Assembly (NCBI GenBank): GCA_001795385.1
Contig: MGOU01000022.1
Location: forward strand, 1 to 33,565
Reading direction: 5' to 3'
From: Clostridiales bacterium GWD2_32_19
GTDB lineage: Bacteria > Bacillota > Clostridia > Lachnospirales > UBA12420
Length of the DNA: 33,565 nt
The notes beneath the pieces were generated by a model that worked only from the letters and a program-made list of their open reading frames with translations, had not been told where the DNA came from and made no database searches. The translations under genes and the position numbers were made by a program. Within the stretch, counting starts at the first letter, position 1. Each line of letters starts with the position of its first letter. Shown here piece after piece: positions 7,463-29,178 of the stretch.

Positions 7463-8083
7463 TCAGAAATTATTTAAACGTTCTTCCTTTATTTTAATGT
7501 TTCTATGTACATGAGGTTTTTTGTCAAATCCCCACATAGTAATAGAATAGTCAAGTCCTTCAATCTCCACACAAACTCCAAAGCTAAAGCTTAATGATAC
7601 TATAAGTAGGTCATGATGAAGTTCGGTATCTAAAACATCAAGTATTTTGGGAAAAAGACTCCAAAACTTGCTTAAAGGCATCTTAACTGCTCCAATTTCG
7701 CTATCATAGTCATGAAAAATAGCGACTTCTCTATTCATCATATCAACCATTTTAGGTTTTAATGATTTAAGCTTTTCTATAACTTCATCATATGTATCAA
7801 TAAACTCAGAAAGTTCATGATGGGAAAATATATATTTATAAGCTTTATGCTTAAACTTTTTTGTAAGAATAACATCTATAAAATCATTTGAAGATAGAGG
7901 AACACCTAAATATGTTCCGAAATGCTCTACAAAATCTCTTGCAGTTTCTATTTGTACAACACTAGTTCTAATGGTATTTAATCTTTTGTTTAAATCAGTA
8001 TTTTTAGAGATTACTGCTAAAAGTTCATCAGTTTGTTCATCAACGGTCTTTGGCATAGTATATTTTTTGAATAATGAAAACAT
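7463..8083 (-). CDS. Uncharacterised 206-aa protein
   Basis: I do not recognise this protein. It is a single complete ORF with a clear AAAGGAG site on the minus strand (about 8093-8099) and a terminator directly after it. No signal peptide, membrane helix or cysteine cluster is visible. The first two thirds look mainly helical and charged (residues 10-125). The last third is more hydrophobic, with a probable beta segment LLIVSLSFSFGVCVEIEGL and a basic tail with PHVHRNIKIKEERLNNF. It is the only sizeable minus-strand gene in the window, facing dgt and divergent from the methyltransferase gene. Codon use looks like its neighbours. It is likely cytoplasmic; I assign no function. Confidence 0.8.
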   Translation of the reverse strand: MFSLFKKYTMPKTVDEQTDELLAVISKNTDLNKRLNTIRTSVVQIETARDFVEHFGTYLGVPLSSNDFIDVILTKKFKHKAYKYIFSHHELSEFIDTYDEVIEKLKSLKPKMVDMMNREVAIFHDYDSEIGAVKMPLSKFWSLFPKILDVLDTELHHDLLIVSLSFSFGVCVEIEGLDYSITMWGFDKKPHVHRNIKIKEERLNNF

Positions 8084-12781: not shown

Positions 12782-13426
12782 GTGGGAAAGATTTTGGACG
12801 GAATAAGTGACTTGATAAAAGGTAATGAAACAGAGGAAGTAGTTAAGCCAGTTAGTTTTGGGGTAGAAGAAAAATATGATAGTTTTACATCATTTATGGA
12901 CGAGCATGAAAAAGAGGTTACAGCGGTTGAAACTAGTAATTTGCATGAAATAGTTACATTCAATAAGCTTATACATATACATGAATTAATGAGACTTAAA
13001 GATGAACAAGAAAAGTTGAAACAGGATGACGCATTTAATCATACAATGGGAAAAGGTGTCACTCAGGCTATATGGGATATACATTTTAAGAATGATGAAA
13101 GTTTAAGGAAACTTCAAGTTAAAGAAAAATCAATTAATAAACTCATGGACAATCAAAACGGTAACAACAGTGAAGTTAAAGATGCAGGTGTAGAGGTTGA
13201 TAGAGCTTTTGCAGCTGTTTTATCTAAGATAGATCCAGAAGTTACAAGAGTCTGTTTGGAGAGTCGAGGTGATATCAGTAGACCTGATAGCCCTAGACCT
13301 GTTGACATTTTAGCAGAAATAGTTAGTTGTATTTCTTTGAAAGGGCATGAGCAATTTATAGAAGAGGTATTAGTATTAATAAGAAAGTATGAGCAAAAAA
13401 AACAAATTGAACTATTAGATATATAA
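12782..13426 (+). CDS. Uncharacterised 214-aa cytoplasmic protein
   Basis: I do not recognise this protein. It starts with GTG at 12782, seven nt after GAGGAG, and is followed by its own terminator. The N-terminal 45 residues are acidic and low in complexity. Residues 48-135 are predicted helical and very charged, with HIHELM, DEQEKLKQDD and an Asn-rich stretch DNQNGNNSE. The C-terminal part (145-214) looks like a compact helical domain with SRPDSPRPVDILAEIV and the tail IRKYEQKKQIELLDI. There is no signal peptide, membrane span or cysteine motif. It sits as a monocistronic unit between the RNase and ftsK genes; no function is implied by that. Confidence 0.8.
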   Translation: MGKILDGISDLIKGNETEEVVKPVSFGVEEKYDSFTSFMDEHEKEVTAVETSNLHEIVTFNKLIHIHELMRLKDEQEKLKQDDAFNHTMGKGVTQAIWDIHFKNDESLRKLQVKEKSINKLMDNQNGNNSEVKDAGVEVDRAFAAVLSKIDPEVTRVCLESRGDISRPDSPRPVDILAEIVSCISLKGHEQFIEEVLVLIRKYEQKKQIELLDI

Positions 13427-24681: not shown

Positions 24682-25467
24682 ATGGGATTTATGACACAAA
24701 ATATTTATATGAATATGGAAATTATATTTTTAGTAATGCTTAGGATTGTAGCCTTTTTTGTAAGCGCCCCATTCTTTAGTGGTCAATATGTAAATAACTA
24801 TATTAAGGTAGGACTTTCATTTATAATTGCCAATGTTGTTGTATCAACTGGATTGGTGAAAACTGTTAGTTATTCAAATAATATTTTTGGTTACTTTGGT
24901 ATTGGGATAAAAGAAGTAGCAGTAGGATTAATACTTGGATATACAGCTACAATAATCTTAAATGTAATAGTTATGGTAGGTGAGATGGTAGATTTTCAAA
25001 TTGGTTTTTCAATGGCAAGTGTTATGGATCCGTTAAGTGGAACCCAAATGCCTATAACAGGTAACTTGTATTATTTTTCTATAATAGCAATAATGCTTAT
25101 AACAAATATGCATTATGAACTTATAAAGGCTATCGTATACAGTTATAATATTGTAGGACTTGGAGTTTTTCATTTGACACAGGCGCTGTTTGATACACAT
25201 ATGGAAATAATTACAGATATGTTTGTTACAGCAATAAAGATGGCGAGTCCGATAATAGGGATAATGCTTATTATAAATATTGGACTTGGTATACTTGTTA
25301 GAACATTACCACAAATGAATATGTTTGTTGTTGGATTGCCAATAAAAATATATATATCGTTATATGTTATGATTCTTATAACACCATTTACGATTATGAG
25401 TTTTTCATATATATTCGATAAGATAGATGTAAGTCTTATCAAAATGTTAAAAGGGATGAGCCCATGA
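24682..25467 (+). CDS. fliR: Flagellar export gate protein FliR
   Basis: Single-copy gate subunit that caps the FliP ring. It has about six hydrophobic helices, the conserved early Arg in LRIVAFFVSAPFF, GYTATIILNVIVMVGEMVDFQIGF with the following MASVMDP, and the C-terminal RTLPQMNMFVVGLPIKI. The length is 261 aa. Its stop overlaps the flhB start in ATGA. Confidence 0.96.
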   Translation: MGFMTQNIYMNMEIIFLVMLRIVAFFVSAPFFSGQYVNNYIKVGLSFIIANVVVSTGLVKTVSYSNNIFGYFGIGIKEVAVGLILGYTATIILNVIVMVGEMVDFQIGFSMASVMDPLSGTQMPITGNLYYFSIIAIMLITNMHYELIKAIVYSYNIVGLGVFHLTQALFDTHMEIITDMFVTAIKMASPIIGIMLIINIGLGILVRTLPQMNMFVVGLPIKIYISLYVMILITPFTIMSFSYIFDKIDVSLIKMLKGMSP

Positions 25468-26588
25468 TGAATGAAAATATAACAAAAAATATATTAATAA
25501 AATTAAATTTGCAATTTTTTGCTGAAGGTGCTGGCGGAGAAAAAACGGAACTTCCTACAGAAAAGAAGAAAAAGGAAACGATGAAGGAAGGCCAGTTTGC
25601 CAAGAGCATGGAAATCAATACAGCTATGCTTATAATATTTAGCTTCTTTAGTTTGAAAATATTTATTCCATATATGTACGATAAGATTGTAGATTTGTTT
25701 AATCATACATTTTCGTTATTATCAAAAACAGATGAGATATTTAGCATATCGTATATGTCAAGTTTTTTAACAGACATGTTTGCTAGAACATTAATAGCAG
25801 TACTTCCCATTACAGTTGTTTGTTTAATTGTAGGTGTAATTGCAAATGTAGTTCAAATAGGATGGCATCCTACATTAAAACCAATACAACCAAAATTAAG
25901 CAGAATAAATCCTCTTGAAGGGTTTAAAAGGATTTTTTCTATGAGATCAGTAATGGAACTGATGAAATCACTTTTGAAACTAGTGCTGATATGTGCCATA
26001 CTATATGTATCAATAAGTAGTGAGATAAAAATATTGCCAGCATATATGAATATGAGTATAGTTCAAAGTACATTGCATGTTGGTAATGTCGTTATAGATA
26101 CAGCGCTTAAGATAGGTATATTATTTGTAGTATTAGCAATAATTGATTACTCATACCAGAGATTTGAGCATATGAAAAAAATAAAAATGAGTAAATATGA
26201 AGTGAGAAAAGAGTATGAACAAGAAGAAGGTAAGCCAGAAATAAAACAAAAGATAAAACAAAGAATGAGACAAATATCGATGAGAAGAATGATGAATGAT
26301 GTTCCAAAAGCTGATGTAATTATTACAAACCCTACTCATTATGCGATTGCTGTAAAGTATGACCAAAAGAAGGATGCAGTACCGAGAGTAGTGGCAAAAG
26401 GAACAGATTTCTTGGCTAAGAGAATAAAAGAAGTAGCTATTGAAAATAAAGTAGAAATAGTAGAAAACAAACCACTTGCAAGAACATTGTATGCAACTGT
26501 TGAGATAGGTGAAGAAATACCAGAAGAATTATTCGGAGCAGTAGCAGAAATCCTAGCATTCGTATATAAACTTAAAAACAAAGTGTGA
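25464..26588 (+). CDS. flhB: Flagellar export substrate-specificity switch FlhB
   Basis: Export apparatus protein that switches from rod-hook to filament substrates. N-terminal LNLQFFAEGAGGEKTELPTEKK is followed by four membrane helices (to about residue 220) and the cytoplasmic domain with the self-cleaving NPTH (TNPTHYAIAVKYD). The length is 374 aa. Start codons overlap at 25464 and 25467; the first forms the ATGA overlap with fliR. In most relatives flhA follows directly, but here a repeat-flanked DUF3795 gene intervenes. Confidence 0.97.
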   Translation: MMNENITKNILIKLNLQFFAEGAGGEKTELPTEKKKKETMKEGQFAKSMEINTAMLIIFSFFSLKIFIPYMYDKIVDLFNHTFSLLSKTDEIFSISYMSSFLTDMFARTLIAVLPITVVCLIVGVIANVVQIGWHPTLKPIQPKLSRINPLEGFKRIFSMRSVMELMKSLLKLVLICAILYVSISSEIKILPAYMNMSIVQSTLHVGNVVIDTALKIGILFVVLAIIDYSYQRFEHMKKIKMSKYEVRKEYEQEEGKPEIKQKIKQRMRQISMRRMMNDVPKADVIITNPTHYAIAVKYDQKKDAVPRVVAKGTDFLAKRIKEVAIENKVEIVENKPLARTLYATVEIGEEIPEELFGAVAEILAFVYKLKNKV

Positions 26589-26664
26589 AGAAGTGGCTAG
26601 TGAAAAGATTTTAAAAAGGAACACACCCGCTAGACTGTCATTGTGACATACTAAGAGTTTGTTT

Positions 26665-26705
26665 CCCTCTCCCTTTGTTGTAGGGAGGGGGTAGGGTGAG
26701 GGTAG
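26665..26705. repeat. GC-rich hairpin repeat, left copy beside the DUF3795 gene
   Basis: CCCTCTCCCT pairs with AGGGAGGGGG (one G-T pair) around TTGTTGT, followed by a GGGTGAGGGTAG tail. The reverse complement of 27051-27096 matches it closely, including a shared 13-nt run CTCCCTTTGTTGT and the tail TAGGGT-AGGGTAGT with few differences. It lies in the 161-nt gap after flhB, which otherwise holds a small TGTCA/TGACA palindrome (26636-26648) and the next ribosome site. Confidence 0.75.
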
Positions 26706-26749
26706 TAAAATATCAGAATAATGTGAAACTAAAATAGAGGTGAGAACAA

Positions 26750-27013
26750 ATGATAGAATCAAGATGTGGACTTAAGTGTAATACCTGTGAATGGAAGGGT
26801 CCCATGGGTTGCAAAGGTTGTATGGAATCAAATGGGGATATGGCATGGGGAACGTGTAAGCTTGCAAAGTGCTGCATGGACAAAAAGCATAATCATTGTG
26901 GCAAGTGTGGAAAGTTTCCATGTGATGAGTTAAACGAATTTGCATATGACAAAGAGCATGGCAATAATGGAGAAAGGCTTGAGACTTTGAAAACTTGGAT
27001 AAAAGAGGAATAA
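26750..27013 (+). CDS. Small cysteine-rich DUF3795-type protein
   Basis: An 87-aa protein with 11 cysteines at residues 6, 10, 13, 21, 24, 36, 41, 42, 50, 53 and 58. They are arranged CGLKCNTC, GCKGC, CKLAKCC and CGKCGKFPC, a layout typical of DUF3795 proteins, which probably bind zinc or an iron-sulfur cluster. No biochemical role is established for the family. It has an AGAGGTG site and is co-directional with the operon. It splits flhB from flhA and is bracketed by two inverted copies of one repeat, so it looks like a later insertion. A flagellar role is not implied. Confidence 0.85.
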   Translation: MIESRCGLKCNTCEWKGPMGCKGCMESNGDMAWGTCKLAKCCMDKKHNHCGKCGKFPCDELNEFAYDKEHGNNGERLETLKTWIKEE

Positions 27014-27023
27014 ATTATAAATA

Positions 27024-27096
27024 AGGGAGAGGGTTAGATACGCGAAAGCGACTACCCTAACCCTAACCCTCTCCCGACAACAAAGGGAGAGAGGGG
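27024..27096. repeat. GC-rich structured repeat, right (inverted) copy beside the DUF3795 gene
   Basis: GGGAGAGGGTTAG (27025-27037) is the exact inverted complement of CTAACCCTCTCCC (27063-27075), enclosing a mini-hairpin CGC-GAAA-GCG (27041-27050) with a GNRA-type loop. CTCTCCC (27069-27075) can instead pair with GGGAGAG (27085-27091), giving two mutually exclusive folds. The outer part is the inverted homologue of 26665-26705. The element ends about 10 nt before the flhA ribosome site. Confidence 0.75.
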
Positions 27097-27120
27097 ACAC
27101 AAGAGAGGTAGGTGGAAATA

Positions 27121-29178
27121 GTGAAATCAGGGGATATGGCACTTGGATTTGTTGTAATATTAGTTGTTTTGTTATTTCTAATACCTCTTCCACCATTTTT
27201 ATTAGACTTCCTTTTAACAATAAATATTGGACTTGCACTTATTATACTCTTAAATGCATTGTTTTCAAAAGAATCTTTAGATATGTATTTATTTCCTACA
27301 ATATTATTACTTACAACATTGTTTAGACTAGGTCTAACACTCGCTTCTACAAGGTTAATACTGGGTGAAGGTGAAGCGGGACAGGTTATTGCAACTTTTG
27401 GTTCGTTTGTTGCAGGTGGTAATATTGTCGTAGGTAGTATACTATTTATAATAATAGTTATAATTCAATTTTTAGTTATTACAAAGGGTGCAGAAAGAGT
27501 AGCGGAAGTATCTGCAAGATTTACACTGGATGCAATGCCTGGTAAACAGATGGCGATAGATGCTGACTTGAACTCTGGCGTAATAGATGATAAACAAGCA
27601 AAAGAAAGAAGAGATAAAATACAAGAAGAAGCTTCATTTTATGGATCAATGGATGGAGCAAGTAAGTTCGTAAAAAACGATGCTATAGTTAGTATAATAG
27701 TAATATTTGTAAATATAATAGGTGGCTTAATACTTGGTATGACAGGTGTAACGGGTGGTAAGCCGTTAGACTTTGCTGATGCAATACAAAAGTATACCAT
27801 ACTTACAATAGGTGACGGACTTGTGGCGCAGTTACCAGCACTTTTAATATCAGTAGCCACAGCGATACTTGTAACTAAAGCAGCAAAAGAGACAGACATG
27901 AGCGCAACATTACTGAAGCAATTATTTAGCGTGCCTAAAGTATTATATCTTACAGGTGGGGTTTTAATATTTTTAGGAGTATTTACACCACTACCATGGT
28001 ATTCAATGGTTCCATCTGGTGTTTTGTGTATTTTAGGAGCAAATGCTATGAATAAAAACTTGAAGAGAAAGTCTATAGAGACAGAAATATCTTCAGAAGA
28101 TGTAGAAGTAGAAGAAATAAGAAAACCAGAAAATGTCATATCGTTATTACAAGTTGACCCAATAGAGCTAGAGTTTGGGTATGGTATAATACCACTTGCT
28201 GATACAAATCAAGGTGGGGATTTACTAGATAGGGTAGTTATGATAAGAAGACAGATTGCTCTTGAACTAGGCACAATAGTACCGATAATAAGACTTAGAG
28301 ACAATATACAATTAAATCCTAATCAATATATAATAAAGATAAAGGGAATTGAGGTAGTCAAAGGTGATATTATGTTTGATCACTATATGGCTATGAATCC
28401 AGGATATGTTGAGGAGGAGATTGATGGAATAGAAACAATGGAGCCAGCTTTTGGACTACCAGCTTTGTGGATTACAGAAAAACAAAGAGAAAAAGCAGAG
28501 TCTTTTGGATATACAGTAGTTGATCCTCCATCAATAATAGCAACACATCTTACAGAAGTTATCAAATCACACTTACATGAATTACTTACAAGACAGGATG
28601 TTCAGACACTTATAACTAAAGTAAAGGAAGAAAATGATGTTTTAGTTGATGAATTAGTACCTAAGCTTATGAATATAGGAGAAATACAAAAAGTGCTTGC
28701 AAATCTCCTTCGTGAGGGTATATCGATAAGAGATTTAGTATCTATATTTGAAACACTAGCAGATTATGCTCACAATATAAAGGACACAGATGTTTTAACT
28801 GAGTATGTAAGGCAGTCACTTAGAAGGGCGATATCTAGAAAGTGTTTTCAGCAAGGTCAAACTAATAATGTATTAACACTTGATCCAGAGCTTGAGCAAC
28901 AAATAATGGATTCAGTACAACAATCAGATCATGGAGCATATATTGCTCTTAATCCTAGGATAAGTACTCAGATAATAGAGAAGATAAATGTAGAGGTATC
29001 AAGATTGAACTTTACGAGTGCGCAACCCATAATACTGACTTCACCAATAGTAAGACTATATTTTAAGAAAATTATAGAAGAAGAATTGCCTAATATTATA
29101 GTATTATCATTTAATGAGGTGGACACCTCTACAGTCGAGATACAACCAGTGGGGATGGTGAGCATAAATGAAGATTAA
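27121..29178 (+). CDS. flhA: Flagellar export gate protein FlhA
   Basis: Largest export subunit: about eight membrane helices (residues 8-310) and a cytoplasmic ring domain that docks chaperone-substrate pairs. The FHIPEP family loop is clear (AIDADLNSGVIDDKQAKERR followed by DGASKFVKNDA). The frame is open from GTG 27112, but GTG 27121 fits the usual start (V/M)KSGDMALGF and lies five nt after AGGTGG; length is about 686 aa. The ribosome site lies immediately after the inserted repeat, so that element may influence its translation. The end overlaps flhF by 11 nt. Confidence 0.96.
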   Translation: MKSGDMALGFVVILVVLLFLIPLPPFLLDFLLTINIGLALIILLNALFSKESLDMYLFPTILLLTTLFRLGLTLASTRLILGEGEAGQVIATFGSFVAGGNIVVGSILFIIIVIIQFLVITKGAERVAEVSARFTLDAMPGKQMAIDADLNSGVIDDKQAKERRDKIQEEASFYGSMDGASKFVKNDAIVSIIVIFVNIIGGLILGMTGVTGGKPLDFADAIQKYTILTIGDGLVAQLPALLISVATAILVTKAAKETDMSATLLKQLFSVPKVLYLTGGVLIFLGVFTPLPWYSMVPSGVLCILGANAMNKNLKRKSIETEISSEDVEVEEIRKPENVISLLQVDPIELEFGYGIIPLADTNQGGDLLDRVVMIRRQIALELGTIVPIIRLRDNIQLNPNQYIIKIKGIEVVKGDIMFDHYMAMNPGYVEEEIDGIETMEPAFGLPALWITEKQREKAESFGYTVVDPPSIIATHLTEVIKSHLHELLTRQDVQTLITKVKEENDVLVDELVPKLMNIGEIQKVLANLLREGISIRDLVSIFETLADYAHNIKDTDVLTEYVRQSLRRAISRKCFQQGQTNNVLTLDPELEQQIMDSVQQSDHGAYIALNPRISTQIIEKINVEVSRLNFTSAQPIILTSPIVRLYFKKIIEEELPNIIVLSFNEVDTSTVEIQPVGMVSINED

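Follow-up and report, generated by a model that had tools for sequence, protein, structure and literature searches.

The closest described counterpart of the repeats considered here is TM_ECO, an intrastrand-triplex motif of Escherichia coli and other Proteobacteria with the published pattern CCCTCNCCC N3-6 GGGNGAGGG N3 GGGNGAGGG, in which up to one stem mismatch is allowed (Holder et al. 2015, PMC4666352). TM_ECO copies are intergenic, have no tie to transposases, are linked to variable loci, and sometimes occur as inverted pairs. TM loci are reported to differ by rearrangement between E. coli strains and to be prone to it (PMC4666352). The published list of genomes that carry the motif is proteobacterial. 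A second point of comparison is provided by REPs and REPINs, short palindromic extragenic repeats that often form inverted pairs, and by REPtrons, in which such repeats flank a cognate RAYT transposase gene (PMC3116915, PMC3733652). Here, we describe a pair of TM-type repeats on either side of a small gene in the flagellar operon of Clostridiales bacterium GWD2_32_19, compare the locus with these systems, and discuss how it may have arisen.

The window, i.e., the whole stretch of DNA that was analysed, comprises 33,565 nt of one contig. Repeat copies were scored with a family model, R1, trained on 13 copies from the genus (both window copies and 11 from elsewhere). The junction between flhB and flhA contains the following features:

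25464..26588, plus strand: flhB (PF01312, E 4e-127)
26664..26706, plus strand: left repeat, a full TM-type copy (model R1, 68.5 bits; DNA fold z -2.6)
26750..27013, plus strand: DUF3795 gene, encoding 87 aa with 11 Cys (PF12675, E 4e-9)
27025..27037, plus strand: incomplete third copy of the repeat, GGGAGAGGGTTAG (100% complementary to 27063-27075 over 13 nt)
27051..27094, minus strand: right repeat, a full TM-type copy, inverted (model R1, 62 bits; DNA fold z -2.4)
27121..29178, plus strand: flhA (PF00771, E 2e-265)

The order along the junction is full copy (+), gene, partial copy (+), 13 nt, full copy (-), with a gene-bearing span of 344 nt between the two full copies. The left copy (26664-26706) consists of a hairpin, CCCTCTCCC/GGGAGGGGG, followed by a tail, TAGGGTGAGGGTAGT, that is directed at the DUF3795 gene. 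The right copy (27051-27094) also directs its tail at the gene, and it ends ~10 nt 5' of the ribosome-binding region of flhA. An earlier note on this DNA had described the flanks as inverted relatives of one repeat with matching G-rich tails, enclosing a single 11-cysteine DUF3795 gene on the operon strand. This description is borne out: the 26-nt arms at 26667-26692 and 27066-27091 show 92% complementarity, each of the tails, AGGGTGAGGGTAGT and AGGGTTAGGGTAGT, is directed at the gene, and all three genes match their Pfam families. The identical run that the note reported is also real, but it is 15 nt long (26667-26681), not 13. Absent from that account is the partial copy at 27025-27037, which corresponds to the 3' arm of the hairpin and the start of the tail, in the orientation of the left copy. 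It and the right copy lie 13 nt apart and make up an inward-facing, truncated pair. The start codon of flhA is probably the GTG at 27121 rather than the GTG at 27112, because 27121 aligns with the ATG of the sister species G002. The spacing between flhB and flhA is 523 nt in the GWD2_32_19 genome, as opposed to 199 nt in G002.

Judged by their sequence, the flanking repeats are TM_ECO-like copies of a widespread purine-motif intrastrand-triplex repeat. Their formula, CCCTCTCCC-loop-GGGAGAGGG-(TTA)-GGGTGAGGG, has the core elements of TM_ECO (CCCTCNCCC, GGGNGAGGG and GGGNGAGGG) in the same order, and model R1 recovers, at E 5.8e-10 and 3.3e-7, the hrpB-mrcB pair of E. coli K-12, which shares the (+)(-) polarity of the window pair. 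Homologous sequence, a hairpin, and dispersed intergenic copies, found at variable loci without transposase association, are all shared with TM_ECO, as is the occasional inverted pair, which in K-12 is mostly inward-facing (PMC4666352). There are also differences. The first loop is 9 nt long in the window copies, compared to the published 3-6 nt, and the G-stem has one mismatch in the left copy and one or more in the right. We therefore consider the window copies to be variants of the motif rather than strict members. By contrast, the strict pattern fits at least six copies from the other sister species, G001, and both E. coli controls exactly. Folding covered the hairpin of the window copies, which are putative triplex formers by their sequence. 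The pair itself also differs from TM_ECO pairs, with 344 nt and a gene between its copies instead of about 11-27 nt. With copies in G001 that fit the published pattern exactly, the locus extends a repeat known mainly from Proteobacteria to this clostridial lineage, a placement to which gene content and the two named relatives of the DUF3795 gene also point.

The flanks are genuinely repetitive, since the 16-mer CCCTCTCCCTTTGTTG has 14 sites in the genome with up to two mismatches, compared to three for a reversed control. Pattern and profile searches together yield ~15 copies in the 1.97-Mb genome, some with tails and others as bare hairpins. Nearly all of them are solitary, the flhB-flhA pair being the exception. 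The repeat is present in both other genomes of the genus and is far commoner in G001, where its loops are shorter; at E<=1, model R1 has 19 matches in the GWD2_32_19 genome, 15 in G002, and 70 in G001, with fewer of these being solid. One copy occupies an equivalent position in the GWD2_32_19 genome and G001 (L065, L075), and some insertions of the repeat are therefore old. In G001, the copies at L185, L196, L197, L198, and L202 are also alike outside the triplex core, with approximately TTGTAAAAACTTATATGAAGTT on the 5' side and TTACAGGC or similar on the 3' side, which suggests that G001 has a longer mobile unit. GC-rich hairpins of this kind could affect mRNA stability.

The enclosed gene belongs to the DUF3795 family, with a profile score of 37.2 bits against a curated cut-off of 22.6. 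In an alignment of 11 relatives, one of them a partial sequence, all 11 cysteines of the subfamily are kept in the full-length proteins, and their conservation suggests a metal- or thiol-based role. We found no relative with a solved structure and no NCBIfam family for the protein; its predicted structure has a mean pLDDT of 39, too low to be informative. The closest relatives, 55-58% identical, come from other families of the order. The window gene is free-standing and lies inside a flagellar operon, whereas its relatives, by inspection, are usually found near genes for WYL-type regulators and pyridoxamine-oxidase-like proteins, or are fused to other domains. A ribosome-binding-like sequence, GAGGTGA, is positioned 6 nt 5' of the gene. 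No terminator-like site was found, and promoter-like matches are at background level only. The shared strand, the good ribosome-binding-like sequence, and the lack of a terminator-like site make it likely that the gene is cotranscribed with flhB and flhA, and the co-expression with the export gate that the note expected is plausible. Foreign codon usage was considered and set aside: GC3 is high (0.38), but the amino-acid-corrected z of 1.98 falls inside the range seen for the other genes of the window.

Outside the genus, flhB and flhA are neighbors. Of the 27 loci compared in other families, 25 have flhA close behind flhB and no intervening gene; the stretch fetched for the remaining two contains no flhB. 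The end of flhB is -4 to 73 nt from the start of the FlhA match at these 25 loci, except at two, with 98 and 161 nt, where the match starts well inside flhA. None of the 25 has room for a gene. Neither sister species has an ortholog of the DUF3795 gene, the only DUF3795 protein of G002 being a different one, of 143 aa, that is encoded elsewhere in its genome. Together, the empty outgroup junctions and the lack of a sister ortholog indicate that the gene is a gain on the GWD2_32_19 lineage, in agreement with the earlier note, which took adjacency of flhB and flhA to be normal and the gene to be an addition. Thus, a conserved operon junction can admit a small, unrelated gene.

The same junction differs again in each of the two sister species. 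Of the window unit, the hairpins alone have counterparts in their genomes, and the DUF3795 gene has none. G002, whose FlhA is 94% identical, has an inverted pair of a different hairpin repeat, GGGGTCGGTTCCTT..AGGAACTGTCCCC, with no gene inside. This pair belongs to the GGGGACGGTTCC-type family and has the polarity of the ends of a Y1-transposase element found elsewhere in G002 (L094). In G001 (FlhA 88% identical), two ATPase/nuclease-like genes are located 5' of flhA, with no flhB in the upstream 4 kb. These two consecutive, related genes (L081:840-3830, G001:C10) are AAA-ATPase-like/PD-(D/E)XK-like, with weak Pfam matches, and lie directly 5' of flhA. A search of close relatives for an empty site, as the note had proposed, accordingly yields no clean one in the genus, since the sister junctions carry other insertions. 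The genus sample consists of two sister genomes, and all three assemblies are fragmented and 91-98% complete. By this comparison, the flhB-flhA junction is permissive in the genus, i.e., prone to insertion. It provides a natural case of a repeat-bearing junction whose gene content has changed between species of one genus, as the claim of TM instability predicts.

Genes between inverted repeats are known in the genus from another setting. Several of its Y1-transposase genes are enclosed by inverted repeats of their own, from the GGGGACGGTTCC and GGGTCAGG families, much as RAYT genes are in REPtrons. A 193-aa Y1 transposase (PF01797) is found between inverted GGGGACGGTTCCTT..AGGAACTGTCCCC hairpins at L047 (G000:C8) and L094 (G002:C18); the flanks of these loci appear to be orthologous between the species, which suggests vertical inheritance, and at L047 the upstream repeat and its flank are duplicated downstream. 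Y1 transposases of ~290-320 aa with inverted GGGTCAGG..CCTGACCC ends occur in all three species (L045, L046, L050, L051, L087-L093). An AT-rich unit, GGGAAGATAATACTGATAAAATATATTGAATATAAAGGG.TAGTGTAGTATTTAGTA, is also recurrent (L015, L017, L028, L031), with one copy on the 5' side of a broken Y1-transposase gene (L050/L031).

Our preferred reading, with a probability of roughly 0.68, is that the repeats were inserted separately at a permissive junction, which also recruited a single conserved DUF3795 gene, and that no mobile cassette is bounded by them. TM-like repeats are dispersed in the intergenic DNA of the genus, and the junction would have collected two full copies and a partial one. A free-standing DUF3795 gene would have entered on the GWD2_32_19 lineage and been kept as a same-strand, in-frame-independent member of the operon. 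Most likely, the repeats came separately from the gene, or one pre-existing pair was split; the layout might fit entry of the gene beside or into an existing inward pair, and any order of events drawn from three genomes is tentative. The note's second suggestion, a gene caught between independent repeat insertions, is the better fit of the two it offered. Its first, arrival on a repeat-bounded mobile segment, would make the DUF3795 gene the cargo of a non-autonomous element with inverted-repeat ends, on which a Y1 (IS200/RAYT-like) transposase would act in trans. The layout of the Y1 loci, with a different gene inside, shows that a gene within an inverted pair is a known mobile arrangement in the genus, and a GGGGACGGTTCC-type pair, although without a gene, is present at the G002 junction itself. 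However, the TM-type repeat is not visible on the flanks of any of the 24 Y1-transposase matches in the three genus genomes (a copy may have been missed, given assemblies that are 91-98% complete). Unlike in REPtrons, the repeat has no RAYT neighbor, and the gene that it encloses does not encode a transposase. The search of the genome that the note had suggested recovers dispersed hairpins but no second copy of the 526-bp repeat-gene-repeat unit, which is single copy in the genus. The TM-type repeat was not found near the DUF3795 relatives examined, and no target duplication was identified. The note had also reckoned that a repeat scattered singly would speak against a cassette, and this is largely the distribution observed.

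Proximity of the two copies adds little to the case for a cassette. In simulations, the probability that any two of 15 intergenic copies lie within 430 bp of one another was 0.14, and 0.04 for an inward-facing pair; the simulation weights all intergenic positions equally, and a permissive junction would raise both values. The window pair is therefore only mildly unusual as a pair, although ~0.04 for the inward arrangement is small enough for a linked event to keep some probability. Moreover, most close pairs of the related repeat in G001 face tails-outward, opposite to the window pair, and the only other close inward pair examined, on G001 contig C97, has a further repeat pair inside it instead of a gene. 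Among the related outward-facing pairs, those at L187, L188, and L189 have the form ACTCACCCC.AACCCCTCTCTAAAAGAGAGGGG .. CCCCTCTCTTTTAGAGAGGGG.TGGGGGTGAGT, span ~115 bp, and are REPIN-like. With a single-copy unit, no associated transposase found, and a close pair not rare by chance, a mobile cassette is not supported, and we regard it as very doubtful.

Another reading involves recombination. A DNA segment with the DUF3795 gene next to a TM-type repeat may have recombined homologously into a TM pair that already existed at the flhB-flhA junction, so that the gene ended up with a full (+) copy on one side and a truncated (+) copy on the other. We consider this reading unlikely. The gene does lie between same-direction pieces of the repeat (full at 26664-26706, partial at 27025-27037), with the inverted full copy 13 nt further on; this resembles the E. 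coli inward pair, whose copies are 11 nt apart, with one partner truncated, and TM loci are reported to be rearrangement-prone (PMC4666352). Simple recombination, however, would have kept intact the 5' arm that the right-hand (+) copy lacks, the shared stretch is short, and there is no known donor locus. A broader version, in which triplex-type repeats act as docking sites for the capture of single genes and the flhB-flhA TM pair recombined with a TM-linked DUF3795 gene, is quite unlikely; if true, it would mean that a cysteine-rich, possibly redox- or metal-responsive protein was placed under flagellar export-gate expression. Lastly, the gene could be an ancestral member of the operon that was lost elsewhere, with the repeats inserted around it later. 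With a patchy presence in 60 of the order's 299 good genomes, the DUF3795 subfamily is old in the group. No outgroup junction holds a DUF3795 gene, however, and neither flhA nor flhB is next to any of the 29 relatives for which the surroundings were inspected, making an ancestral gene highly improbable.

Two further repeat families seemed by eye to have left remnants in the left flank (26603-26664), but these were rejected as non-significant (78 and 59 of 1000 shuffles). Elsewhere in the window, the 214-aa product of positions 12782-13426 on the plus strand matches nothing in Pfam at E 0.01, and a minus-strand gene at 7463-8083, amid plus-strand genes, matches YxiF (PF24715, E 4e-13).
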